DNA of 64,000 bases from Chloroflexota bacterium (GTDB taxonomy: Bacteria > Chloroflexota > Anaerolineae > Promineifilales > Promineifilaceae), in contig JAGNBF010000006.1 of NCBI GenBank assembly GCA_018004935.1, positions 5,150 through 69,149 of the forward strand. Direction: 5' to 3'. Below, in pieces: positions 5,053 to 51,128 of the stretch. The position numbers and the translations under genes are program-made. Position 1 is the stretch's first letter, and the number at the start of each line of letters is the position of its first letter. The notes under the pieces are model-generated. The model searched no databases. It saw nothing but the letters and a program-made list of their open reading frames with translations, and was not told where the DNA came from.

Positions 5053-6168
5053 CTACCTGTCTCTACCCCACAATTGGCGCGTGATACGGCGTGTACGCAA
5101 GAAAAACCGCTTGCCATAGTTGAAAGGTTTATCACCCCCATAATAATCGGCCAAAAATTGGGGCGGCGGAAAGAGCAGGCGGTACGCCAGGCGCAAACTA
5201 TCTGACCAACGATCCATCAATAGCAGTTCTAACACATTGGGCAATGGCCCCTCACCGGTTGAACGAAGCGGCTGATCAAAGGTATGCCATTGGGCCAGCC
5301 GTTCTGTCATGCGCCCCCGCCAACCAGTAACCGACACCGGCCACGCGGCCGCATTCCACAGCCTGTGGCCTACCTGCCCTAAATAAGCCAGAGCCACCTG
5401 TGCCCCCGCTTCTCGTGCCAACATCAGCAACAATTCCCTTTGTTGGGGTGCTTGTAAGTGAGACAGTTGCAAGTGAGCATCCAGAAAAAAACTGAGCCGC
5501 TTATACCGGTTGTGCCGGGCATGTAAGGCGGTATGAATAAGGGCATCTACCTCACTAATGAGAGTTGTTTCAATGCCCGCGATGCGGCCGCGGTTGGCCC
5601 TCTGCCATATCTCCGCCACGCCCCAACCCGGCCCCGCTCGCCGTATCAAATCCGTGTGTAACTCAACTACCACCTTACTCTGCTGGTGCAAAAACGGGGC
5701 CAGATGATGCCAGTCCGGTTTTTCCGCCTGGGGATGGGTGATGTAGCCTAACCGATGCATGACGGCCACCGCCTCCCGCGTTGCTTCTGCCGGGATCAGC
5801 AAATCAATATCATCAAAATAGCGGTGATTAACACTCTGATACACCCGATGCGCCAGATACATCCCTTTTACAGGCATCACCGCTATACCCGCCTGAGCCA
5901 TCGCCTCATTTATCGTAACAAAAGCATCCACCAACATAGCCGTACGGATCCGCTGTTGACGGGCGGCCTGATCCAGCCGGGACCAGACCTCGGGAGGCAT
6001 AGATGTTTTCGTGAGGGTAGTATGTAGAATGGGAATCAGCCGTTGCTGGGCGGCCAAAACAAAAACCTGTTCCCAGTGCACCGGGAACAGGTCAGGCAAC
6101 GACTCCCCTTGAATGAAGGCCCGGAGCGTTGCCAGAATCAGTTGCGCTTCCGGGATAAAATCAGTCAT
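5053..6168 (-). CDS. Nucleotidyltransferase family protein (NTP_transf_5 type)
   Basis: 371 residues. The diagnostic block is PVKGMYLAHRVY (residues ~99-110) followed by RYFDDIDLLIP (~116-126), the KG...DIDLL signature of the PF14907 nucleotidyltransferase-like family. Asp119, Asp120 and Asp122 are the likely metal-binding residues. Helical regions lie on either side. Family members often occur in peptide-modification or polysaccharide clusters and their substrates are mostly unknown; here the gene stands alone, convergent with the helicase (78 bp between stop codons). The ATG at 6166-6168 has no obvious ribosome-binding site. Function beyond nucleotidyl transfer is not inferable. Confidence 0.8.
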   Translation of the reverse strand: MTDFIPEAQLILATLRAFIQGESLPDLFPVHWEQVFVLAAQQRLIPILHTTLTKTSMPPEVWSRLDQAARQQRIRTAMLVDAFVTINEAMAQAGIAVMPVKGMYLAHRVYQSVNHRYFDDIDLLIPAEATREAVAVMHRLGYITHPQAEKPDWHHLAPFLHQQSKVVVELHTDLIRRAGPGWGVAEIWQRANRGRIAGIETTLISEVDALIHTALHARHNRYKRLSFFLDAHLQLSHLQAPQQRELLLMLAREAGAQVALAYLGQVGHRLWNAAAWPVSVTGWRGRMTERLAQWHTFDQPLRSTGEGPLPNVLELLLMDRWSDSLRLAYRLLFPPPQFLADYYGGDKPFNYGKRFFLRTRRITRQLWGRDR

Positions 6169-36107: not shown

Positions 36108-37394
36108 TTATCCCTTCGTGTTTTCCATAAGGTAGTGACGTAAATCGGGGTAGCGACGGGCGATGTAAATAGCGATGAGGACGGTGGCCAGGCCGCCCGT
36201 CCAGATAGCGACGGGCACACCAAACGCGGCCGCGACCATTCCCGCTTCCAATTCACCCAATTGTGGGCCACCCATAAAAAAGATCATATTGACGCTGGTC
36301 ATGCGGCCGCGTAATCCATCAGGGGTGAGCAATTGGCGCATGGTATTGCGAATCACCGTCGAAACCGTATCGGCCGCCCCTGTTAATGCATAAAGAAAAA
36401 ATGAGAGCCAGAATGCGGTGGCGAAGCCAAAGGCCATCGTAGCCAACCCATAAATCACAACACTGACAAGTAATACTAACCCTTGCCGCCGGATATCCCG
36501 TCGGAATGACAAAACCAAACCAGCCACCACCGCACCCAAGGGCTGGGCTGTGGACAACAAGCCGTACCCCTCTACCCCCACTTTCAGCAAATCATCCGCA
36601 ACGAGCGGTAACATTGTGCGGGCTGAACTAAAAAAAGTAGCCCAGAAATCCAGCACCATAGACCCCCGAATGATACGTTGGCTCAGAGTAAACCGAATCC
36701 CCTCAACCAATGATTGCCACCCTACCTGGGAGCGGCTCGCGGCCGCGTGACCCTGGTAAGCCATCATCCAGATGAACCCCATCAGCAGGGCAAAGGAAAA
36801 GGCATCTACCGCATACACCACCCCCACATTGAACCGACCAATGAGCCAGCCAGCCAGCCCTGGCCCCGCAATCCCCCCAATCTGAAACATCAGGTTGGTC
36901 AAACTTAATGCATTGGTGAGGTGTTCTTTGGGTACCAGATTAGGCACAATAGCTTGACGTGCGGGATTATCAAAAGCGGTTGCGGCCGCCATAATGGTCG
37001 TCAGAAAATATATTAAGGGCACAGTGATGTACCCTGTGAAGGTCAGCAGGGCCAACACTCCCCCTAATATAGCTGAAACTGCCTGTGTCCATAGCAACAA
37101 GGTACGCCGGTTGCGCGTATCAGCCAAAATTCCTCCCCATAGGCCAAAGAATACCAGAGGGAAGAAGCGGGCCAGCCCTAGCCCCCCTAGCCCCAGAGCA
37201 TCCGCTTGCAGAGTGACGGAACGACCTAATAGGGCAAAGGTAAAACTATCACCCTGCAACAACTGGTATACATGCCAGCTTAGGGCGGTAAATTGCATTT
37301 GTGAACCCAAAATAGAGAGGAGCCTACCTGCCCAAAAAAGACGGAAATCACGGTGGCGTAGCGCTACCAGGGGTGCGGCCGTGCGTTGACTCAT
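36108..37394 (-). CDS. MFS transporter (EntS/MFS_3-like)
   Basis: 428 residues, about twelve TM segments. Blocks fitting the MFS_3/EntS group: LVALRHRDFRLFWAGRLLSI at the start, GLWGGILADTRNRRTLLLWT (motif-A-like DxxxRR), FDNPARQAIVPNLVPKEHL (conserved Asn-Pro-Ala-Arg) and LTPDGLRGRMTSVNMIFF. Such proteins export small molecules, for example siderophores, or drugs; the substrate cannot be told here. Four GCGGCCGC sites lie in the gene. Confidence 0.88.
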   Translation of the reverse strand: MSQRTAAPLVALRHRDFRLFWAGRLLSILGSQMQFTALSWHVYQLLQGDSFTFALLGRSVTLQADALGLGGLGLARFFPLVFFGLWGGILADTRNRRTLLLWTQAVSAILGGVLALLTFTGYITVPLIYFLTTIMAAATAFDNPARQAIVPNLVPKEHLTNALSLTNLMFQIGGIAGPGLAGWLIGRFNVGVVYAVDAFSFALLMGFIWMMAYQGHAAASRSQVGWQSLVEGIRFTLSQRIIRGSMVLDFWATFFSSARTMLPLVADDLLKVGVEGYGLLSTAQPLGAVVAGLVLSFRRDIRRQGLVLLVSVVIYGLATMAFGFATAFWLSFFLYALTGAADTVSTVIRNTMRQLLTPDGLRGRMTSVNMIFFMGGPQLGELEAGMVAAAFGVPVAIWTGGLATVLIAIYIARRYPDLRHYLMENTKG

Positions 37395-40862: not shown

Positions 40863-41240
40863 ATGCCTTCTACATCTTCTACTCGTCGCCGCCTTATTTG
40901 GTTTCTGCTCCTTATTCCTGGCACCGTTTTGGTAGTGGCCCTGGCTTATATCACTGGTCTGGTCAACCAGATTCGTTATACTAACCTGATTATTCGTTGG
41001 ACAACAGAAAGTGAACTAGATGTCCTGGGTTATAACTTATATCGGGCAGATTCGCCTGAGGGTGAATTTGTTCAGATAAATACGAGTCTCATACAACCAT
41101 CACTAGACCCATTGGTAAGTAGTGAACATGAGTATGTAGATGAGGGGCGTGTACGCGGCCGCACCTACTATTACATCCTGGAAACCGTGGATCGTTTTGG
41201 GAATATCAAATCCCGAACTGACCCTATTCCCATTCCCTGA
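40863..41240 (+). CDS. Membrane-anchored FN3-like protein, first gene of the RiPP-like cluster
   Basis: 125 residues. TM at ~11-32 (LIWFLLLIPGTVLVVALAYI) followed by one beta-sandwich domain: NLIIRWTTESELDVLGYNLY, ...EYVDEGRVRGRTYYYILETV. This is an FN3-like module that occurs in secreted proteins along with C25 peptidases and in the related gene at 47876. It lies two bases before the frame of the next gene. It may anchor or display something at the surface. GCGGCCGC at 41155 encodes part of RGRTYYY. Confidence 0.7.
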   Translation: MPSTSSTRRRLIWFLLLIPGTVLVVALAYITGLVNQIRYTNLIIRWTTESELDVLGYNLYRADSPEGEFVQINTSLIQPSLDPLVSSEHEYVDEGRVRGRTYYYILETVDRFGNIKSRTDPIPIP

Positions 41241-41305
41241 CTTTGACACAACATTTTCGCTGTGGTATTATGCCCGGCTGTAACCTGCATAACAGAGAGG
41301 CCATT

Positions 41306-42172
41306 TTGTCTGGTTCCACATCCCCAGCAGATCACATCATCATAGACATTGCTAACCTGGCCGTCAGCATCATTGTAGAAGATGACTCCATGGCTGACCG
41401 CATTCGGAAGAGCTATCACGATTTTATCAATCCCCAAGCAACCCCGATTCTCAACATTACGATCATCGTCAAACCAGGTGCACGTTATATTGAATCAAAC
41501 CCTGGCTATTGGATTATTGATTCCAAATTTACAGCGGATCATCTTACCTACAAATCATATGAAGAATACGGTGAATTAGACTTAGTCAATGGTGTAGGTT
41601 ATCTGGAGATCGCCCCCGAAGCCTACATTGAAAACTATCTCCGGGTTATTTATGCCTGGTTATGTCTTACTCATGGTAGCCTGCTTCTTCATTCCTCTGG
41701 CGTCGTTCGTAACAGCGAAGGCTATGTTTTCTTTGGCCCTAGCGGCGCGGGCAAAACCACTACATCACGCCTGGCATCTCGTCAGGCGACCGTTCTCAGT
41801 GATGATCTTGTTATTATTCGCCAGATAGAGGATGCCTACTACTTGTTTGGTGTACCATTCAAAGGGGAACTCAGTGATGCCCCGCGTGCCAACCAATCAG
41901 CCCCTCTAAAAGGCATCTTTCGTTTGCGTCAGGATGTGCGGCACTATATTGAACCTATGTCACGCATTATTGCTGTGGCTGAGTTAGCGGCCGCGTCACC
42001 TTTCATTAACAACATCGCCCTACTCAATGGCAAACTTATATCCCTATGCAATCGCATTGTCAAAGCAGTCCCCATTCAACAACTTCACTTCCGTCGCGAC
42101 GACGGGTTTTGGAAGGTCATAGATGAGTACTACACCCCTGTACCCCAAACCACATCCACAAACAGCTGGTAG
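41306..42172 (+). CDS. HprK-like kinase / P-loop protein of a RiPP cluster
   Basis: About 288 residues using TTG 41306 (GAGAGG upstream); upstream in-frame TTG 41243 and ATG 41270 are alternatives. C-terminal HPr-kinase-like P-loop: VFFGPSGAGKTTTSRLAS, then a conserved segment DDLVIIRQIEDAYYLFGVPF and ...LKGIFRLRQD. Proteins of this type accompany PqqD and B1/B2-type proteins in lasso-peptide and radical-SAM RiPP clusters and may phosphorylate the peptide or a partner; the reaction here is unproven. It overlaps the pqqD-like gene by 50 bp. Confidence 0.78.
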   Translation: MSGSTSPADHIIIDIANLAVSIIVEDDSMADRIRKSYHDFINPQATPILNITIIVKPGARYIESNPGYWIIDSKFTADHLTYKSYEEYGELDLVNGVGYLEIAPEAYIENYLRVIYAWLCLTHGSLLLHSSGVVRNSEGYVFFGPSGAGKTTTSRLASRQATVLSDDLVIIRQIEDAYYLFGVPFKGELSDAPRANQSAPLKGIFRLRQDVRHYIEPMSRIIAVAELAAASPFINNIALLNGKLISLCNRIVKAVPIQQLHFRRDDGFWKVIDEYYTPVPQTTSTNSW

Positions 42173-42413
42173 AGTCATAGACGGTGAAGCCGTCCTTATT
42201 TTGTCTGAAATCAGTGAAATCAACGTTCTTAATGAAGTTGGCTCACGAATCTTTGAGCTGGCCGATGGCTCCCGCACCCTCAACGAAATCAGTCAGGCCA
42301 TTTCTGATGAATATGAAGTTTCGTCTCAACAAGCAGAACAAGACGTATTAGAATTTGTACAAAAGTTGGTTAAACAAAACGTCCTGGTTCTGGCTGAGCA
42401 AAAAGAGGGGTGA
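42123..42413 (+). CDS. PqqD family RiPP recognition protein
   Basis: 96 residues. Typical PqqD/RRE blocks: AVLILSEISEINVLNEVGSR, IFELADGSRTLNEISQAIS and QQAEQDVLEFVQKLVKQNVL. These small winged-helix proteins bind the leader of a precursor peptide and present it to the radical SAM enzyme. Its GTGA overlaps the start of the radical SAM gene (42410), so they are translationally coupled. Confidence 0.9.
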   Translation: MSTTPLYPKPHPQTAGRVIDGEAVLILSEISEINVLNEVGSRIFELADGSRTLNEISQAISDEYEVSSQQAEQDVLEFVQKLVKQNVLVLAEQKEG

Positions 42414-43495
42414 AGATGTCCGAACAAACCATTGATGTCACAACTGGTCAAAAAACCACGTATGACACCATTGCCCGCAAAGCCGCTAACCAACATCGCT
42501 TGCTTTCCATTCAATGGGAGCTAACCTACCGATGTAATGAACGTTGCAGTCATTGTTACCTCGATGTTATGCCCCCAAGTGCCAAAGTTCCAGGGGAATT
42601 ATCTACAGACGAAGCCAAAAAACTGATAGATGATCTGGTTCGTCTCAATGCTCTCACGATCACCTTTTCTGGCGGTGAAGTTTTTGTTCGTCCCGACATT
42701 TTTGAAATTGCCAGCTATGCCCGCAAAAAAGGGTTTGCCATTCGCTTCTTTACCAATGGCATTTTGATAAAACCAGAAATGGCGGATAAAATTGCCGCCG
42801 TTAAACCGGTTGTAGTGGAGTTCAGCGTTTATGGCAGTAGAGCTGAAACTCATGATGGCATTACTCAGGTGCCTGGTTCTTATGATTTAACAATGCGGGC
42901 CATTAGACTCCTTCTAGAACGTGGGGTGCGTTGCATCATCAAAACACCCATTATGAAGGAAAATATTGAACAAGTTGGCGAACTTCAAGAGCAAGCCAAA
43001 GATTTAGGCGTTAGTTTTCAATATGATTTGACAATTGTCCCTAAACATACTGGTGATGTTTCCCCTCTGAAACACCGACCATCAGATGATCAACTTTTAG
43101 CTTTTTTACGTGACCGGGTAAACACAGAAACCTGGACGTTGTATCAGTTAGAAGAGGAACATCGCTTTTGTGGCATCGGTCTGAGTAGTCTGACTGTTAG
43201 TCCCTATGGTGAAATTTACACCTGTGTAGGGGCACGGGTTTCTGCCGGTAATATTCGCACTTCTCCTATTCATAATATCTGGCACGACTCGACGGTTTGG
43301 GAAGAAACGGGAAACTTGACAATCTCAAAATTACCGGTATGCTCTACATGTGAATTGCGCCAGTTCTGTGTTAGATGTCATGGCACAGCGGCGTTTGAAG
43401 ACGGGGACATGCTTGGATGTTCCTCGGTAGCTTATCGGGAGGCACGTCTGCGCAGACAGGCGTACAGTGACAATCTAGCAAAGTTAGGAGGATAA
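42410..43495 (+). CDS. Radical SAM/SPASM peptide-modifying enzyme
   Basis: 361 residues from GTG 42410; ATG 42416 also fits. The radical SAM motif is RCNERCSHCYLD (Cys42, Cys46, Cys49) in a TIM-barrel. The C-terminal SPASM domain has the auxiliary-cluster cysteines: CGIGLSS, EIYTCVGAR, VCSTCELRQFCVRCHG and LGCSS. GEIYTC fits the SPASM layout of thioether- or C-C-crosslinking enzymes (sactipeptide, ranthipeptide or PqqE-like). It immediately precedes the precursor peptide; the predicted action is to crosslink its Cys/Ser/Thr-rich core. Chemistry is inferred, not proven. Confidence 0.9.
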   Translation: MKMSEQTIDVTTGQKTTYDTIARKAANQHRLLSIQWELTYRCNERCSHCYLDVMPPSAKVPGELSTDEAKKLIDDLVRLNALTITFSGGEVFVRPDIFEIASYARKKGFAIRFFTNGILIKPEMADKIAAVKPVVVEFSVYGSRAETHDGITQVPGSYDLTMRAIRLLLERGVRCIIKTPIMKENIEQVGELQEQAKDLGVSFQYDLTIVPKHTGDVSPLKHRPSDDQLLAFLRDRVNTETWTLYQLEEEHRFCGIGLSSLTVSPYGEIYTCVGARVSAGNIRTSPIHNIWHDSTVWEETGNLTISKLPVCSTCELRQFCVRCHGTAAFEDGDMLGCSSVAYREARLRRQAYSDNLAKLGG

Positions 43496-43500
43496 TAACA

Positions 43501-43650
43501 ATGAAGAAAGTTATGACCCAGAAAAAAGCTTACGAAAAGCCTGCTGTGATCCATCGTCAGATCATGGAAAGTGTTGCCGGAGCTTGCCAACAGTCCGGTG
43601 GTACAAACGGCAAAGCTGATCCGACTGCTTGTACAACTATCAATAGCTAA
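43501..43650 (+). CDS. RiPP precursor peptide (49 aa)
   Basis: Too short to stand out in long-ORF searches. The ATG at 43501 has a strong GGAGG ten bases upstream and starts five bases after the radical SAM stop. Sequence: MKKVMTQKKAYEKPAVIHRQ then IMESVAGAC (Cys29), a core QQSGGTNGKADPTACTTINS with Cys44. The leader KPAVxHxxxMESVAG matches the KPxV..E..AG leader of PqqD-dependent radical-SAM peptides. The core is Gly/Ser/Thr-rich, with two cysteines, so thioether crosslinks at Cys29 and Cys44 are plausible. A terminator follows at 43776. High confidence that it is a precursor; the product structure is unknown. Confidence 0.85.
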   Translation: MKKVMTQKKAYEKPAVIHRQIMESVAGACQQSGGTNGKADPTACTTINS

Positions 43651-44064
43651 TTACTGAATCGCACAAATATTCGCTTCAGGTATAAAAAAGTTACACCTAT
43701 TTGTGGTGTTTATTTTTTGTTGCATTTGCAATGGACATCACGTTTGGTTAAGTAACTAACAATATTATCGTTATCTAAAAGGGCTAGGTCATTGTATCTA
43801 GCCTTTTTTTTTGCCTGTGGAACGGGGGGGAAATGACAGGGGAACCATTCCTAAGCGAAAGTTGAATAGTTTGTGAAGAAGACTACCCATTTTGGTCAGT
43901 TAGGGGTAATTTGGTAAAGGTATGGCTTCAGGCAAGAAGTTGTTGCCAGAAAGTCTGGGAAGTATTCCCAAATTGTGGGAGCCGGTTCTGAATCAATTTG
44001 CCCCAAGGTGCCCTTTACCCACAACCCCCCAAGAAACTTATAGGTATTTCCAGGAGCTGTGTGC
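43651..44064 (+). terminator. Terminator after the precursor gene, then a leader region
   Basis: The hairpin at 43777-43810 (AAAAGGGCTAG, TCATTGTAT loop, CTAGCC then a run of nine T) lies about 130 bases after the precursor stop. It would let the short peptide transcript be made in excess of the downstream peptidases. The rest (43811-44064) is an AT-rich leader with no convincing gene; a minus-strand frame there (43896-44084) looks spurious. Confidence 0.75.
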
Positions 44065-47000
44065 ATGATCCTTTTAGCAAACAAGTTAAGACAGCATCGC
44101 CTTCATCACGGTTTGTGGTGGATTATTTTGATTCTTTTTTTGTCGTTGTTGATCGGAATGCCCGGATCATCTCTTGATGCCGCTGAGGTAAATCAGAATG
44201 GAGAAACCTCGCTAAGAGATGTGGCGTTGGTTACTTCAAATGCAGAAAAGGTTATTTTTTCGGTAACTCCCCCTCTGTTTAGTCAAACGCAAGTACAAAT
44301 AAATGATAGTGTATGGTCGAAAATCGTTATGCCTGGGTATGCCAATATGGCAATGCCAGGCAAACCTGACCTTCCCCAAATGTCTTTTGTAATTGCTTTG
44401 CCCCCAGGCGCGACACCTGTTCTAAGGGTGTTGGATCAAGAAAAGAATGTGGTAACTGGGGTGCGGGTAGCCCCAACATCTCGACAAGAGTTGGTGGCTT
44501 ATGATTTCACACAACCAGAAGTGGCCCCGCAGTTCAACGAAGTCATTGAGTTTGACGAGGTTTATAATCAGGATGTTTTGTATCCTCAGGAACTGGCTTT
44601 ATTAGGTCAGGAGTTGTGGCTTCGTGATCAACGGGCGATTACTGTTTTGATAAGACCAGTGCAGATGAACGCGGCCGCAAACACCCTCACTGTTAGCTCC
44701 CATCTTACCGTTGAGGTGGCTTTCACTTTCCCTGAGGGTGAATCCGCTGGCGCAACAACAACTTCACGACCAGAAAGCGAAACATATGAGCGGATTCTAC
44801 AAAATACGCTCCTTAACTACGCGGCCGCCACTGAATGGCGGCAAATTCGGGCCAGCAATGCCGCTCCCCAAACATCTCCTTGCCTCTCAGACTGGAATCC
44901 CAACACATTCCGGGTGGCCGTCAATAACACTGGTATTCATCAAATCACCTACACAGAGTTAGCGGCCGCGGGGTTATCGGGCACTAGTTCATCAAATCGC
45001 CTTCAGATGTGTCACTTTAACACGGAAATCGCCATTCTCGTGGAAGATGGAGGAGATGGCACTTTTGGCAATGGTGACAAAATTGTTTTCTATGGTGAGG
45101 AGATAAAAACTCAGGAAACAGAAACAAACATCTACTGGCTCACAATTGATCCAGATGAAACGGGTCTCAGAATGCAAACCAGTAATGGTGCTCCAGCCGC
45201 AGGGTCAACGCCAACCTATTATGTTGATAGCCAACATATTGAAGTTGATCAGGTGTATTACAACCTGTTTCCCCTGACTGATGCCAATGACCACTGGTAT
45301 TGGGATATGATCGGTCATCAATCGGGCAGTGCTCCCAGCATTTTAAACGCTCCACTTTATGTCACCAGTCTGGCGAGTGGGGCTTATATGGTTAATATTC
45401 GGGCGGAAGTATGGGGCTTTACCACCACTGATGCTCACCGATACCGGGTTCTTTTGAATGGTACGCAAGTCGGCCCGGACCAATATTTTTATGGTTCGGG
45501 GAAAACCAGTTCTCACCTTTTTAATGAGCAGGTTAGTTCAACGGCTCTACTCAATGGCAATAATACGATAGCCATTCAAGCGATAAGTGATGGGACGGCC
45601 GATCCATCTCATCAAATGATCATCAATTGGGTTGAAATAGATTATCGGCGCCAGTTTGTGGATGATGGGGACCGGATTCTGTTTGATCAAGACACCGCCG
45701 GAACATGGAAATATGTGGTGAGTGGGTTTGCCAGTACGCCAGATATTTTTGATGTGACAAATCCCACATCTCCAGCCAAAATCACGAATGCGACCGGTAC
45801 AACGACGGTGACGTTTGAGCAAACAAACGCGGCCGCGTTTGCCCTCACCACAACCGGGGCACGGTTTAACAGCCTCAGCATCACCAAGGATACTTTCCCA
45901 TCAACTCACTTACAAACAACAACCAACCAGGCCGACGATATCATCATCACCGATCCCAGCTTAAACAGTAGTCTGGCCCCCCTGATTGCTCATCGCACCA
46001 GTGTTAATGGACTTTCTGTACGTACTGTGTATGTGCAAGATATTTTCGATGAGTTTAGTTACGGCCTTTACGACCCAGTGGCCATTAAACGCTTTTTAGA
46101 ATTTACCTACACGGATTGGGCTTCTCCGGCTCCAACCTATGTCTTGCTCGTGGGGGATGCCAGTTATGATCATCGTGATATCTTGGGCCTAAACGACAAT
46201 GGCAATCTGGTGCCTGTTTATCTGCGCTCTGGCATTGATAGCTGGCTCGGGGAAACGGCGGCGGATAATCAGTATGTTGATTTTGATGGGAATAATCTGG
46301 CCGATATGCTTTTGGGCCGTATTCCGGTCAAGACTACAGCAGAATTAACTAGCTATATCACCAAACTTCTGGCCTATGAAACCGCACCATTAAACATCAC
46401 CTGGCATACCAAACATCTTTTTGTCGCCGATAATGGGCTGATCTATGACAGTGCCAACAATGAATGCAATATGGATCCGGCAGGTGACTTTTTTGCGACG
46501 GTATATAACTTTTTACGCAATAAGTTCCCCAATGGTCGCCAGTTTTCCAATATGCTTTTCTACGCGCCAACACAGTGTTATCCCACAAACAGACCATCCC
46601 ATTATGCGGAAAGTCCCATTGAGATACAGACTCGTTTCCGCGATGCATTAAATCAGGGATACCAATTTGTTGTTTACACCGGGCACAGTGGCACCAATTT
46701 TTGGGGGCAAAATCCTCAACTCGTTACCATCAGCACGGTGAACTCCCTAACCAATACAGACAAACCAGCCATTATGCTCCCCATGACCTGTCTGGAAGGT
46801 TTTTACCATACACCGGAGTTAGTCAGTCTTTCGGAAGCATTCGTTGAGCATCCCAACGGTGGGGCAGTAGCCAGTTATGCCCCCACTGGTCTACAAGTTC
46901 AAACGGGTCATGATTTTCTACTCACCGGTTTTTATAAAGCACTTTTTGTCACCGATACAGAGATTCTTGGGGAAGCAATACTAAGTGCAAAGCTTGAGTT

Positions 47001-47127
47001 ATATAACTCAAGCAATAGCTCTGTGCAGGATTTACATGACACATTTATGTTGTTAGGGGATCCGGCTATGCATATGCACATATGGGAAGCTACCCATTCA
47101 ATGTTTACGCCTGTGCTCAGCCGATAG
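44065..47127 (+). CDS. C25 (gingipain-like) cysteine peptidase 1
   Basis: About 1020 residues from ATG 44065 (AGGAG eight bases upstream). Signal-anchor at the N-terminus (LWWIILILFLSLLIGMPGSS), then beta-rich prodomain-like regions. The C25 peptidase domain (from about residue 590): YVLLVGDASYDHRDILGLND, ADMLLGRIPVKTTAELTSYI, catalytic His in FVVYTGHSGTNFWGQ, catalytic Cys in MLPMTCLEGFYH, and GGAVASYAPTGLQ. Family enzymes are secreted (gingipains, PorU-type). No C-terminal anchor is present. Its position after the precursor suggests leader cleavage or surface processing, but this is inference. Four GCGGCCGC sites fall in the prodomain half. Confidence 0.85.
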   Translation: MILLANKLRQHRLHHGLWWIILILFLSLLIGMPGSSLDAAEVNQNGETSLRDVALVTSNAEKVIFSVTPPLFSQTQVQINDSVWSKIVMPGYANMAMPGKPDLPQMSFVIALPPGATPVLRVLDQEKNVVTGVRVAPTSRQELVAYDFTQPEVAPQFNEVIEFDEVYNQDVLYPQELALLGQELWLRDQRAITVLIRPVQMNAAANTLTVSSHLTVEVAFTFPEGESAGATTTSRPESETYERILQNTLLNYAAATEWRQIRASNAAPQTSPCLSDWNPNTFRVAVNNTGIHQITYTELAAAGLSGTSSSNRLQMCHFNTEIAILVEDGGDGTFGNGDKIVFYGEEIKTQETETNIYWLTIDPDETGLRMQTSNGAPAAGSTPTYYVDSQHIEVDQVYYNLFPLTDANDHWYWDMIGHQSGSAPSILNAPLYVTSLASGAYMVNIRAEVWGFTTTDAHRYRVLLNGTQVGPDQYFYGSGKTSSHLFNEQVSSTALLNGNNTIAIQAISDGTADPSHQMIINWVEIDYRRQFVDDGDRILFDQDTAGTWKYVVSGFASTPDIFDVTNPTSPAKITNATGTTTVTFEQTNAAAFALTTTGARFNSLSITKDTFPSTHLQTTTNQADDIIITDPSLNSSLAPLIAHRTSVNGLSVRTVYVQDIFDEFSYGLYDPVAIKRFLEFTYTDWASPAPTYVLLVGDASYDHRDILGLNDNGNLVPVYLRSGIDSWLGETAADNQYVDFDGNNLADMLLGRIPVKTTAELTSYITKLLAYETAPLNITWHTKHLFVADNGLIYDSANNECNMDPAGDFFATVYNFLRNKFPNGRQFSNMLFYAPTQCYPTNRPSHYAESPIEIQTRFRDALNQGYQFVVYTGHSGTNFWGQNPQLVTISTVNSLTNTDKPAIMLPMTCLEGFYHTPELVSLSEAFVEHPNGGAVASYAPTGLQVQTGHDFLLTGFYKALFVTDTEILGEAILSAKLELYNSSNSSVQDLHDTFMLLGDPAMHMHIWEATHSMFTPVLSR

Positions 47128-47133
47128 ATAGCC

Positions 47134-47721
47134 ATGACATCGCTACAACCTGACTCGCGTGTCATGGCGGAACTGTTGAAAAGAGGGATGAGCCAGGGGC
47201 AAAGGCCTTATTTGACCATTTCTAGTGGGAGTATGCGGCCGCTTCTTGTTGTAGGTGATGAGATTCAGCTAGAACCGGTTACGATCAAAGATTTGCTTCC
47301 TGGCGATATTATTACGGTAGTAGCGCCAGTTGAACTTTTAACCCATCGTTTTTATGGTGTTTATGAAAATGATGGGTGTACCTGGTTAGTAACGCGAGGT
47401 GACCGTTTTTTGCTTTTTGATTCGGCCTGGCATGAGGCACAGTTAGTGGGTCGTGTCATAACGCGCCGTCGCCATAAAAGGCGGCGGCTGTCTTTGAGGG
47501 AAGGGGGAGGTAAGTGGTTAAACGGCTATATGGGGCGACTCGCGGCCGCAGAAACTCGTTTCTTTGGTGCCCGACACATGCCCCTTCCCCCTCTGCACAG
47601 CTTTACCCTCACGCCAGGCTGGGGAAGCAAAATCCCTTTCTTTTGGGTGCGTCAGATTCGACGCATCCTCTACCTTTGGCTAACATTAGTCGCCTTTGTT
47701 GTGCGCGTTTTAGCATCTTAG
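47134..47721 (+). CDS. S26/S24-type signal-peptidase-like protein
   Basis: 195 residues. Catalytic Ser block TISSGSMRPLLVVGDEIQLE and a likely His in LLTHRFYGVYENDG, with VTRGDRFLL and a basic loop (RRRHKRRRLS), then a C-terminal TM (IRRILYLWLTLVAFVVRVL). The His in place of the usual Lys suggests the Sec11/SipW-type Ser-His form. Such proteins recur in PqqD/HprK RiPP clusters. It lies six bases after the first C25 peptidase and is probably co-transcribed. Possible role: leader or signal removal. Confidence 0.75.
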   Translation: MTSLQPDSRVMAELLKRGMSQGQRPYLTISSGSMRPLLVVGDEIQLEPVTIKDLLPGDIITVVAPVELLTHRFYGVYENDGCTWLVTRGDRFLLFDSAWHEAQLVGRVITRRRHKRRRLSLREGGGKWLNGYMGRLAAAETRFFGARHMPLPPLHSFTLTPGWGSKIPFFWVRQIRRILYLWLTLVAFVVRVLAS

Positions 47722-47726
47722 CGAGC

Positions 47727-47775
47727 GTCCAAAAATAAATTGGGTGGCACGGTCAGAAGACCAGCGTGAACAATT
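47727..47775. repeat. Dispersed repeat R2 (degenerate)
   Basis: GGTGGCACGGTCAGAAGACC at 47743-47762, preceded by AAAAATAAATT, lies 6 bases after the S26 stop. The core differs slightly from the consensus (AGAAGACC for AGGAGACC). It separates the S26 gene from the next gene. Confidence 0.7.
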
Positions 47776-47875
47776 GCGTAAGTCTTTTTGATAAACCATC
47801 TCATATGCTGACACAGCCCAAAACATCAAATCATTGATCTTCAAGATTGCCAGCAGCTGTGTTTTGAGGAGTTGC

Positions 47876-48919
47876 ATGTTTACCCCAAAAACGATTCGTC
47901 ATTTAGCCCTTGTTCCTCTTCTTCTTTGCCTCGTAGGCTGGACTCGTCCAGGACAACAGACGCCGTCCGCAGTAACCCTGGCTGATTTTTTCGCTATCAG
48001 TGGTGAGGGGGTGATTACACTGGATTGGGTAACAGCTTATGAACAAGATCATTTGGGGTTCCGGGTTTTTCGAAGCTTGACCTCGGAACTAGAGGATGCT
48101 GAGGCTATTTCGCCTCTTATCAATGCAGAAAATAATGTGAATGGGGCGGAATATGATTTTGAAGATACCGCTGTCACCGATGGCGTTCTGTATTACTATT
48201 GGTTAGAACTGGTGCCCAACGGTAATACAGAGTCAGACTTTTCCTCTTCCATTAGTGCCACGACATTGGGCGGAGCACCTATTAGCACCATTCCTGCGGG
48301 TGCAACCAGCACACCCGTACCCACTACTGTGTCTGGTACGGCTACACCGCAAGCAACTAGCGTTGCCACCGCTACATCAGGGCTAAATCCGGGAACAAGC
48401 ACCGCCACACCACAATCTACCGCCACCGCCCAACCGATAGCCAGTGCGACGACTATCGCTATTGTGCCAACAAATACCCCTAATGGCCCGCTTCTGCCCA
48501 CGCCAACCCGTTTCACCTTTCCCCCAACCGCTACCGCGGCCGCAAACAGTAACCCCTCTATCTCAGAAGGTAACGAGAGCGCTCCGCTTTCTCCCACTCA
48601 AGTTGTTGATGGGTCTGATGCTGATACAGCCACTATAACTGATATTGGGGGGAACGGCGGTTCAGGGAGCACAACCAATAATGCAGAATCCCCAGGAAAT
48701 GGGAACACCACGGGCACAGGGGACGATCAACCCGATAGTGTAGCGGTTCTTGGTCAGGAAGACTCCATGGACACGCCCCTTTCTCCCCCCACCTCTGATA
48801 CCACAACGACCCCAGCCCCACGCACGATGTCACCCATTGTAATCATGTTCTTGTTGGTGGGTCTCATTTTTACCGCCGGGGGAGTATTTACCACGCTGGT
48901 ACTGCTCAAACGCCGCTAG
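47876..48919 (+). CDS. Secreted FN3-like protein with Thr/Pro-rich stalk and C-terminal TM
   Basis: 347 residues from the ATG at 47876 (GAGGAG upstream); the longer frame is discounted. Signal peptide (LALVPLLLCLVGW), a domain like that of 40863 (GEGVITLDWVTAYEQDHLGF, ...VLYYYWLELV), then a ~150-residue Thr/Ser/Pro-rich region (TPVPTTVSGTATPQATS...) and a C-terminal TM (IVIMFLLVGLIFTAGGVFTT) with a basic end. It has the layout of a surface protein with a glycosylatable stalk. It could be a substrate or anchor for the flanking C25 peptidases. Confidence 0.72.
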   Translation: MFTPKTIRHLALVPLLLCLVGWTRPGQQTPSAVTLADFFAISGEGVITLDWVTAYEQDHLGFRVFRSLTSELEDAEAISPLINAENNVNGAEYDFEDTAVTDGVLYYYWLELVPNGNTESDFSSSISATTLGGAPISTIPAGATSTPVPTTVSGTATPQATSVATATSGLNPGTSTATPQSTATAQPIASATTIAIVPTNTPNGPLLPTPTRFTFPPTATAAANSNPSISEGNESAPLSPTQVVDGSDADTATITDIGGNGGSGSTTNNAESPGNGNTTGTGDDQPDSVAVLGQEDSMDTPLSPPTSDTTTTPAPRTMSPIVIMFLLVGLIFTAGGVFTTLVLLKRR

Positions 48920-48992
48920 TGGCCAGATTATTATCTGCTGATACAGGGTAAGCTCCTGACACATCTTCATATTTGTCTCTTAAGAGTTGTCC

Positions 48993-51128
48993 ATGAAACA
49001 TAAACGTTGGTTCTTTCTCTTCGCGGCCGCATTCGGCCTTCTTGCCATCACCGCCACCGTTGTCGCCGCCCGTTATTATTTGGCCCAAAGAAATGGAGCT
49101 GTAAATCCCCTTCCAGAAGGTCAGATACCCCAGGCCCTACGCCTCACTATTTATGAATCTGGTATTACGGCCGTTACCGCTGAACAATTAGCTGAGGCAA
49201 ATCTGGGTCATATCCCTTTTGAACCAGAAAATCTAGCACTAAGCCGGGATGGTAAACCTGTCCCTTTCATCATTCAAGATGAGATCCTTTACTTTTACGC
49301 CATTGCCATTACCCAAACGCTCGAAGCGCCAGCAGTATACTGGCTAACACCCGGCAAAGGATTGCCCATGCCCTCGGCTTCAGTCAAAACAGCCCCCGAA
49401 GGCGTAAATCGCGGCCGCGTGGTCTACCATTGGGAAGAAAACAATGTTTTTGTAGGCCCCGCCCTGGGAGACGATGTCTGGTTTGTGGACTTACTCAATG
49501 CCGGTGAAACCATGGATATCCCCTTCACCGAACTGGCCCCTCTGAACACAGAATCCACTTTAGTAATACAAGTCTGGTCTAATAACGAAACCAACGAAAA
49601 CCCCGACCACCATCTACAGGCGACTCTGAATGATGCATTCACTGGTGATTACACCTGGGACGGCAAAAAGCAACAGACAATCTCCTTCACACTCGGGGCG
49701 GATATCTGGCAAGAGGCGGGGAATACCTTAACCCTCGCCATACCCGGAGATACGGGTGCTCTAGGTGAACAAGTTTACATAGATTGGGTAGAATTGATTT
49801 ACATGCGGCCGCTCGATCTAACTGATGCACCCCTCACCTTCAGCAGTGCCAGCGAGGGTGTGCAACTAACCGGAGCCACGGCAGACACCCTTATTTTTGA
49901 TATTACCAACCAGAACAGTCCCCTACACCTGACCGATCTGACGGTGGAGGATGCGACCTTACAATTTGCCTCAGACAGTGAAAATTGGTACGCGGCCGCA
50001 AATCCCTCTCAAGTTATTCACCCAGAAATCACCCTGGCTCCCACCTGGCCAAACAGTCTGCAAACAGAACAATCCGGCGCTGACTATCTGGCTATTTATG
50101 TCAATGCTCCCGGTTTTCAGGCCGCCATCCAACCCCTGCTTACCTACCGCCAAGAACAAGGTTTGGATACACAAGCAATTGATGTGGCCCAGATTTACGA
50201 TGAGTTTGGTCACGGACACCAGACCACGACGGCCATTCGCGATTTTCTCACCTACGCGGCCGCAAACTGGCAACCTGCTCCCCGCTACGTTCTCCTGGTA
50301 GGTGACGCCTCATACGATATTCACAACTTCACCAACGGCAAAAATCTCGACCTACTACCTACCCACCTCATGTATACCTTCTTTACCGGTTATGTCGCCA
50401 GCGACACCTGGTTTGTTATTCCTGAAGGTAGCACCCCCTCCCCTACCATGGCAATTGGTCGCCTACCTGCCCAAACAGTCACACAGTTAGAAACAATGGT
50501 GGCGAAAACCCTCCTTTATGAACGAGAAGCTGATCCATCCTGGCGTAATCAAGCCTTACTCGTCGCAGACGACGAACCCTACTTCGATACAACCTCTGAT
50601 GAACTGGCCTCTCAACTGACTGATTCTGGCTTTGTACCCCAAAAACTCTACATGAGTCAAAATGAAGACATCCACGACACCATCATACAAACCATTAACG
50701 ATGGTGTCGGGTTGATCAATTATGTGGGACATGGCAGTGTGGAAGTATGGGGGGATGAACGTGTTTTGCAGGCAAAGGAGGTCGAATCATTGCGAAATCG
50801 CGGCCGCTTTCCCATCTTCACCACTTTTACCTGCCTCAATGGCTACTTCAATCACCCAGACGTAAATGCCCTGGCCGAAAGCCTGCTCATCGCCCCCAAT
50901 GGGGGAGCCGTTGCCGCTATTGCCCCCTCCAGTCGTACCACCACCTTCCAACAGTTCCAGGTCGCCAATGTTTTCTTTACCCAATTGCTCTCCGGAGAAG
51001 TAACCACTATCGGTGAAGCTTTACAAATGGCTAAACAGGCTAATGCCGAAAACGAAAACGCCTACGATGTAATCTACAGCTTCAGCCTATTGGGTGATCC
51101 GGCTTTGCACTTCTATATTCCTGAATAA
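48993..51128 (+). CDS. C25 (gingipain-like) cysteine peptidase 2
   Basis: 711 residues from ATG 48993 (AAGAG upstream); TTG 48987 is an alternative. N-terminal signal/TM (WFFLFAAAFGLLAITATVVA), a beta-rich prodomain (~90-340), then the C25 domain: YVLLVGDASYDIHNFTNGKN, GRLPAQTVTQLETMVAKTLL, catalytic His in LINYVGHGSVEVWGDE, catalytic Cys in TTFTCLNGYFNHPDV and GGAVAAIAPSSRTTTF. It shares the catalytic core of the first copy but is ~300 residues shorter at the N-terminus. Last gene of the cluster. Six GCGGCCGC sites. Confidence 0.85.
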   Translation: MKHKRWFFLFAAAFGLLAITATVVAARYYLAQRNGAVNPLPEGQIPQALRLTIYESGITAVTAEQLAEANLGHIPFEPENLALSRDGKPVPFIIQDEILYFYAIAITQTLEAPAVYWLTPGKGLPMPSASVKTAPEGVNRGRVVYHWEENNVFVGPALGDDVWFVDLLNAGETMDIPFTELAPLNTESTLVIQVWSNNETNENPDHHLQATLNDAFTGDYTWDGKKQQTISFTLGADIWQEAGNTLTLAIPGDTGALGEQVYIDWVELIYMRPLDLTDAPLTFSSASEGVQLTGATADTLIFDITNQNSPLHLTDLTVEDATLQFASDSENWYAAANPSQVIHPEITLAPTWPNSLQTEQSGADYLAIYVNAPGFQAAIQPLLTYRQEQGLDTQAIDVAQIYDEFGHGHQTTTAIRDFLTYAAANWQPAPRYVLLVGDASYDIHNFTNGKNLDLLPTHLMYTFFTGYVASDTWFVIPEGSTPSPTMAIGRLPAQTVTQLETMVAKTLLYEREADPSWRNQALLVADDEPYFDTTSDELASQLTDSGFVPQKLYMSQNEDIHDTIIQTINDGVGLINYVGHGSVEVWGDERVLQAKEVESLRNRGRFPIFTTFTCLNGYFNHPDVNALAESLLIAPNGGAVAAIAPSSRTTTFQQFQVANVFFTQLLSGEVTTIGEALQMAKQANAENENAYDVIYSFSLLGDPALHFYIPE

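Follow-up and report, generated by a model that had tools for sequence, protein, structure and literature searches.

We have identified a nine-gene locus in the window, the 64,000-nucleotide stretch of Chloroflexota DNA analysed here, and think it reasonably probable that it encodes a RiPP pathway belonging to a Chloroflexota-wide family. Gingipain-family proteases are best known from periodontal Bacteroidota, and the locus links peptide natural-product pathways of Chloroflexota to this protease family (C25) outside that phylum. The predicted product, a cysteine-crosslinked peptide carrying a C-terminal phosphate, would be of a new type, and the S26 peptidase is a probable leader peptidase for clusters without a C39 protease. 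Additionally, the role of C25 peptidases beyond Bacteroidota becomes testable, apparently in a culturable strain.

Gene order of the locus

The locus spans positions 40863-51128 of the window, in a genome bin of 7.98 Mb, and consists of nine plus-strand genes flanked by NadD and a Xer-like recombinase. Domain searches of the window recovered every gene that an earlier sequence-only reading had listed, each on the plus strand and where it had been placed:

40863-41240, plus strand: FN3a, 125 residues, with an N-terminal membrane helix and one extracytoplasmic FN3 domain
41243-42172, plus strand: HprK/PEPCK-type P-loop kinase (GPSGAGKTT and SDD motifs), 309 residues from a TTG start; the start may be ATG 41270
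42123-42413, plus strand: PqqD-type leader-peptide-binding protein, 96 residues (PF05402, 7.3e-16)
42410-43495, plus strand: radical SAM/SPASM maturase, likely start ATG 42416
43501-43650, plus strand: precursor peptide, 49 residues, two cysteines
44059-47127, plus strand: C25a, with a signal peptide, a C25 propeptide and a C25 peptidase domain; C-terminus MFTPVLSR
47134-47721, plus strand: S26 signal-peptidase-like serine peptidase (SGSM, HR and GD motifs)
47834-48919, plus strand: FN3b, with an FN3-like domain, a Ser/Thr/Pro-rich stalk and a C-terminal membrane anchor; the start may be ATG 47876
48987-51128, plus strand: C25b, with an N-terminal membrane helix and a C25 peptidase domain

At the gene junctions, the HprK-like and PqqD genes share 50 bases, and the PqqD TGA overlaps a GTG at which the radical SAM gene could begin, but for this gene the orthologues suggest ATG 42416 as the start instead. 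Five bases separate the radical SAM stop codon from the precursor ATG, and GGAGG lies upstream of the precursor. The sequence-only reading supposed a cell without a classical ABC exporter, and no ABC exporter was seen in the window cluster or in its close relatives; ABC transporter genes lie a few kb off only in some distant loci (L048, L121). No dedicated exporter was recognised among the window cluster genes, and in their vicinity a single gene was identified as exporter-like, that of an MFS_3 transporter (36108-37394, minus strand) upstream of Obg and beyond it as seen from the cluster.

Conservation and the wider family

The window gene order recurs in five other Chloroflexota MAG loci, found when every window protein was compared with relatives by tblastn, and protein identities among the six genomes sharing it are ~30-78%. 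The set is complete in L008 and, on the opposite strand, in L022, and is complete in L009 except for FN3b, which gave no match. Contig ends cut the other two loci, inside C25a in L023 and inside the radical SAM gene, where the contig begins, in L024. The sequence-only reading had held that a lack of co-occurrence in related genomes, or a precursor not kept beside the SPASM gene, would count against it; the set was found in these five further loci, and the precursor adjoins the SPASM gene in six of six. This constant position, together with ten residues that are invariant among the six close loci, makes the precursor more than a chance open reading frame. The radical SAM gene was found in only 5 of the 56 genomes of the order, and the distribution of the cluster is thus patchy.

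A profile built from the six maturases and run on 400 Chloroflexota genomes gave matches in 18, and we compared 24 loci in total, the six close ones and 18 further neighbourhoods (L047-L064). HprK and PqqD each occur in 23 of the 24, the remaining locus being cut by a contig end, and C25 and S26 in 20 and 18, respectively. The cassette of the wider family therefore consists of PqqD, the SPASM enzyme, a cysteine-containing precursor and HprK, usually with S26 and C25. This family apparently takes in the cultured Herpetosiphon aurantiacus, one of its genomes (G165) being what we take to be strain DSM 785. A pair of C25 peptidases, which had been proposed as part of the set, is a feature of the window-type subgroup, together with FN3b, but most of the wider relatives have a single C25. 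The scan of the whole collection also gave nine radical SAM loci that are more distant, some of them on short contigs; none carries HprK, PqqD, S26 or C25, so the set is not generic to SPASM enzymes, and co-occurrence with any such enzyme is ruled out as its explanation.

Both FN3 proteins are shared within the close group, FN3a being kept in L008, L009, L022 and L023. FN3b aligns with FN3a and keeps its place, with S26 before it and C25b after it, in L008 and L024. The AlphaFold model of FN3a has a mean pLDDT of 78, and its leading PDB matches are nearly all FN3-containing proteins.

Precursor peptide and maturation enzymes

The leader of the window precursor ends in KKAYEKPAVIHRQIMESVAG and is followed by the core ACQQSGGTNGKADPTACTTINS, with a proposed cut between SVAG and AC. 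The 19 distinct precursor sequences compared fall into two types, one with a spacing of exactly 18 residues from Tyr to the first Cys and two cysteines (7/7, window included) and one with a spacing of 20 and three cysteines (12/12). The pattern [VIMT]-x-[GAS] stands ahead of the first cysteine in 18 of the 19: the residue two before that cysteine (P1) is G, A or S in 18, and P3, two residues before P1, is V, I, M or T in all 19. Of the 19 precursors, 16 end in Ser or Thr, the window precursor in Ser; three precursors labelled type B end in V, M or P although HprK is present. These constraints, with Ser or Thr as the last residue in 16 of 19, have a nominal P of ~4e-12, a value that ignores relatedness.

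The [VIMT]-x-[GAS] pattern is similar to what the (-3,-1) rule describes for signal peptidases, which suggests that the S26 peptidase cuts there. Against the archaeal/ER-type signal peptidase model TIGR02228 this protein scores just below the cut-off (2.2e-12, 47.1 versus 51.85 bits), and its Ser33, His71, Asp90 and Asp96 are invariant in 11 loci. It had earlier been assigned to a step at the cell surface; lacking an N-terminal membrane segment, it looks more like a leader peptidase.

The maturase contains radical SAM (PF04055, 1.8e-24) and SPASM (PF13186, 2.8e-07) domains, and the CX3CX2C motif and seven SPASM cysteines are invariant across six orthologues. Its profile matches the SkfB and PqqE structures, and none of the maturases tested reached a curated NCBIfam cut-off. 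Cysteine chemistry is favoured over cyclophane chemistry by a core that for the most part has few aromatic residues but contains two or three cysteines.

The HprK-like protein falls under the Pfam HprK cut-off, and its matches to HprK_rel_B (8.6e-10) and ScmC (3e-6) are partial-length and all far under the cut-offs. Its profile aligns to the HprK structures 2qmh and 1jb1 and to PEPCK, and PEPCK folds top the matches of its structure model, which is of low confidence (pLDDT 51, from a three-sequence alignment). HprK homologues phosphorylate the C-terminal position of lasso-cluster peptides (PMC8498205), and by analogy the kinase here, to which the sequence-only reading had given no role, probably phosphorylates the C-terminal Ser or Thr of the peptide.

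Both C25a (PF01364, 5.1e-82, 276.5 bits; C25 propeptide PF08126, 1.1e-18) and C25b (PF01364, 1.9e-86, 291.1 bits) belong to peptidase family C25, scoring over the 23-bit PF01364 cut-off with the catalytic His and Cys present. Every cluster C25 whose sequence extends over this site keeps both residues.

Proposed pathway

From what is observed, namely the gene set and its conservation, the precursor constraints, the intact active-site residues and the way C25 is linked to the cassette, we infer each chemical step and the C25 role in the following reading of the locus. PqqD, by binding the leader motif YEKPxV, would deliver the precursor to the radical SAM/SPASM enzyme for crosslinking of its cysteines, most likely as thioethers (sacti- or ranthipeptide chemistry). 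Phosphorylation of the C-terminal Ser or Thr, as in paeninodin, would fall to the HprK-like kinase, and S26 would cleave behind [VIMT]-x-[GAS], a site that ends two residues ahead of the first cysteine, to give a peptide of ~22 residues. The peptide or its carrier may then be acted on outside the membrane by the C25 peptidases, which are secreted and associated with FN3 proteins, in final processing or attachment. Family knowledge and the precursor constraints together point to the steps placed in the cytoplasm, namely leader binding, modification by the radical enzyme, phosphorylation and leader cutting, whereas the C25 step, which its signal sequence places outside the cytoplasm, is the least certain. 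That no exporter was recognised counts against this reading, which requires the peptide to reach an extracytoplasmic C25.

C25 peptidases and alternative explanations

Many C25 peptidases and other secreted proteins end in a sequence resembling YLPLVxK/R, and the ends of the cluster C25s are mostly tag-like. An earlier, looser search pattern was noisy, and we therefore counted a strict DNA pattern for Y-L-P-[LIVM]-[VIM]-x-[KR]-stop in 400 Chloroflexota genomes. It gave 339 matches in the 59 C25-positive genomes (5.7 per genome). A hand count gave ~74 matches in the 341 other genomes, ~0.2 each and no more than a reversed-pattern control. All 31 genomes with at least four matches encode C25. 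The counts are uncorrected for relatedness, and one family (f26) contributes many of these genomes. Examples of the tag lie at 14708-14731 in L008 and at 12039-12068 in L095, and it is a possible PorU-like sorting or processing signal.

Within family C25, PorU works as a transpeptidase and attaches cargo to A-LPS (PMC8545088, PMC4560394). With this precedent, the C25 peptidases could be PorU-like surface transpeptidases or sortases, and the peptide an attached or anchoring group, or part of one, for secreted proteins bearing the YLPLVxK/R tag, an explanation that we regard as fairly unlikely. In its favour are the tag enrichment confined to C25-bearing genomes, the tag-like ends of the cluster C25s and a second C25 pair in the window's own genome (L095, contig C2, 8479-16423), which accompanies FN3a, PqqD and FN3b. 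No radical SAM gene or precursor was seen at L095, and its neighbours, judged by eye, include Wzz-like chain-length, glycosyltransferase-like and flippase-like genes with the look of polysaccharide synthesis or export. However, many tag-bearing Chloroflexales genomes have C25 but no such RiPP cluster, so the tag system does not need the peptide; both window C25s also score below the PorU cut-off (~270 versus 420 bits), and attachment is only predicted. The more specific version, in which PorU-like C25s read the YLP[LIVM][VIM]x[KR] tag and the phosphorylated, crosslinked RiPP is their dedicated substrate or all or part of the attached group, seems to us improbable.

C25 genes also lie beside peptide clusters of other kinds. 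L129 (5682-13106) and L131 (5151-14042) each encode a lasso-like precursor with a Y..P motif, an asparagine-synthase-type protein, an HprK-like kinase and large C25 proteins; an Asn_synthase domain was confirmed at L131, and PqqD gave no match at either locus. L121 (6574-14311) has a precursor beginning ERRPYEPPQIIEELELTTRAGSP, with a Y..P leader and no cysteine in its core, beside PqqD, S26 and a C25 pair; there is no radical SAM gene at this locus, and two ABC transporter-like genes lie beyond. At L097, PqqD, HprK-like, C25 and S26 genes are followed by one for an NTP_transf_5 protein. The window itself has an NTP_transf_5 nucleotidyltransferase gene (PF14907, 5e-40) at 5053-6168 on the minus strand, ~35 kb from the cluster.

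This linkage of C25 to several RiPP types, the two lasso-like loci included, is easier to reconcile with a common target than with a common chemistry. The peptide might thus be a secreted effector or inhibitor with the cell's own C25 peptidases as its target or immunity partner, in a protease-inhibitor or zymogen-control pair. We hold this to be rather doubtful: some cassettes have no C25, and the overlapping Herpetosiphon genes fit a pathway equally well.

Returning to the RiPP pathway with an extracytoplasmic C25 step, the tie between C25 and the cassette was followed by counting PF01364 in 13 genomes. The cluster's own C25 is the sole one of the genome in G176, G125 and G222, which represent three families, and each of the two clusters of G397 holds one of that genome's two C25 genes. 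In G248 and G255 the kinase/maturase cassette has no neighbouring C25, and PF01364 gives no match anywhere in either genome. The related cassettes at L048, L050 and L051 do without a nearby C25, which is thus not an absolute requirement. In a C25 tree, C25a and C25b fall into separate groups and the Herpetosiphon C25s lie elsewhere, which refutes a single clade tied to the cassette; with cluster C25s at two or more tree positions, the association probably arose more than once. That this is an ordinary radical SAM RiPP cluster, with C25 neighbours by chance or shared regulation, is very improbable, for although C25 genes can also stand apart from RiPP genes, as in Chloroflexales, where they lack any RiPP neighbours, chance adjacency is disfavoured by the single-copy linkage in three families, by the two cassette-bearing genomes devoid of C25 and by the repeated association that the tree suggests.

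Comparison with known systems

The sequence-only reading knew of no described family with this exact set, and our literature search agreed with it, giving no paper in the collection searched that joins radical SAM, peptidase C25 and RiPP. The same search gave no paper on SynChlorMet and no paper title on RiPP clusters of Herpetosiphon. The cluster resembles SynChlorMet (ScmA-F, NCBIfam TIGR04248-TIGR04251) in its short precursor and its HprK-like, PqqD-like and SPASM radical SAM proteins, but SynChlorMet has two radical SAM enzymes. To our knowledge, C25, S26 and FN3 genes are no part of SynChlorMet. Membership of that system was rejected, as ScmC (26.8 versus 125 bits), ScmD (27.1 versus 100), ScmE and ScmF (92.6 and 92.2 versus 400) are far under their cut-offs. 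Membership was also rejected for mycofactocin (MftC radical SAM model, 141.2 versus 265 bits), PQQ biosynthesis (PqqD 42 versus 46 and PqqE 77 versus 381 bits) and WgkABC, whose curated cut-offs were missed.

PorU-type C25 proteins share with the window pair the C25 domain, a C25 propeptide (in one of the two), secretion and an intact His and Cys. In contrast, the window proteins have a C-terminal tag of ~7 residues in place of a beta-sandwich CTD, and they score below the cut-off of the PorU sortase model (NF033707; 270.6 and 272.6 versus 420 bits).

Phosphorylated lasso peptides (paeninodin, PadeK) offer a closer parallel for the kinase, sharing a Y..P leader motif, a separate PqqD-like binder, an HprK homologue and a C-terminal Ser; in the window, too, the HprK-like kinase gene accompanies a precursor ending in Ser. 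The window cluster differs from them in having a SPASM enzyme, and no asparagine-synthase-type cyclase or B2 protease. With sactipeptides and ranthipeptides (SkfB, PapB, StsB) it would share a SPASM maturase acting on a cysteine-containing core, but the thioether is only a prediction here, and the window cluster, in which no ABC exporter was seen, adds a kinase and the C25 and S26 peptidases. Like other radical SAM RiPP clusters, it combines a SPASM enzyme with a conserved adjacent precursor and a leader-binding protein.
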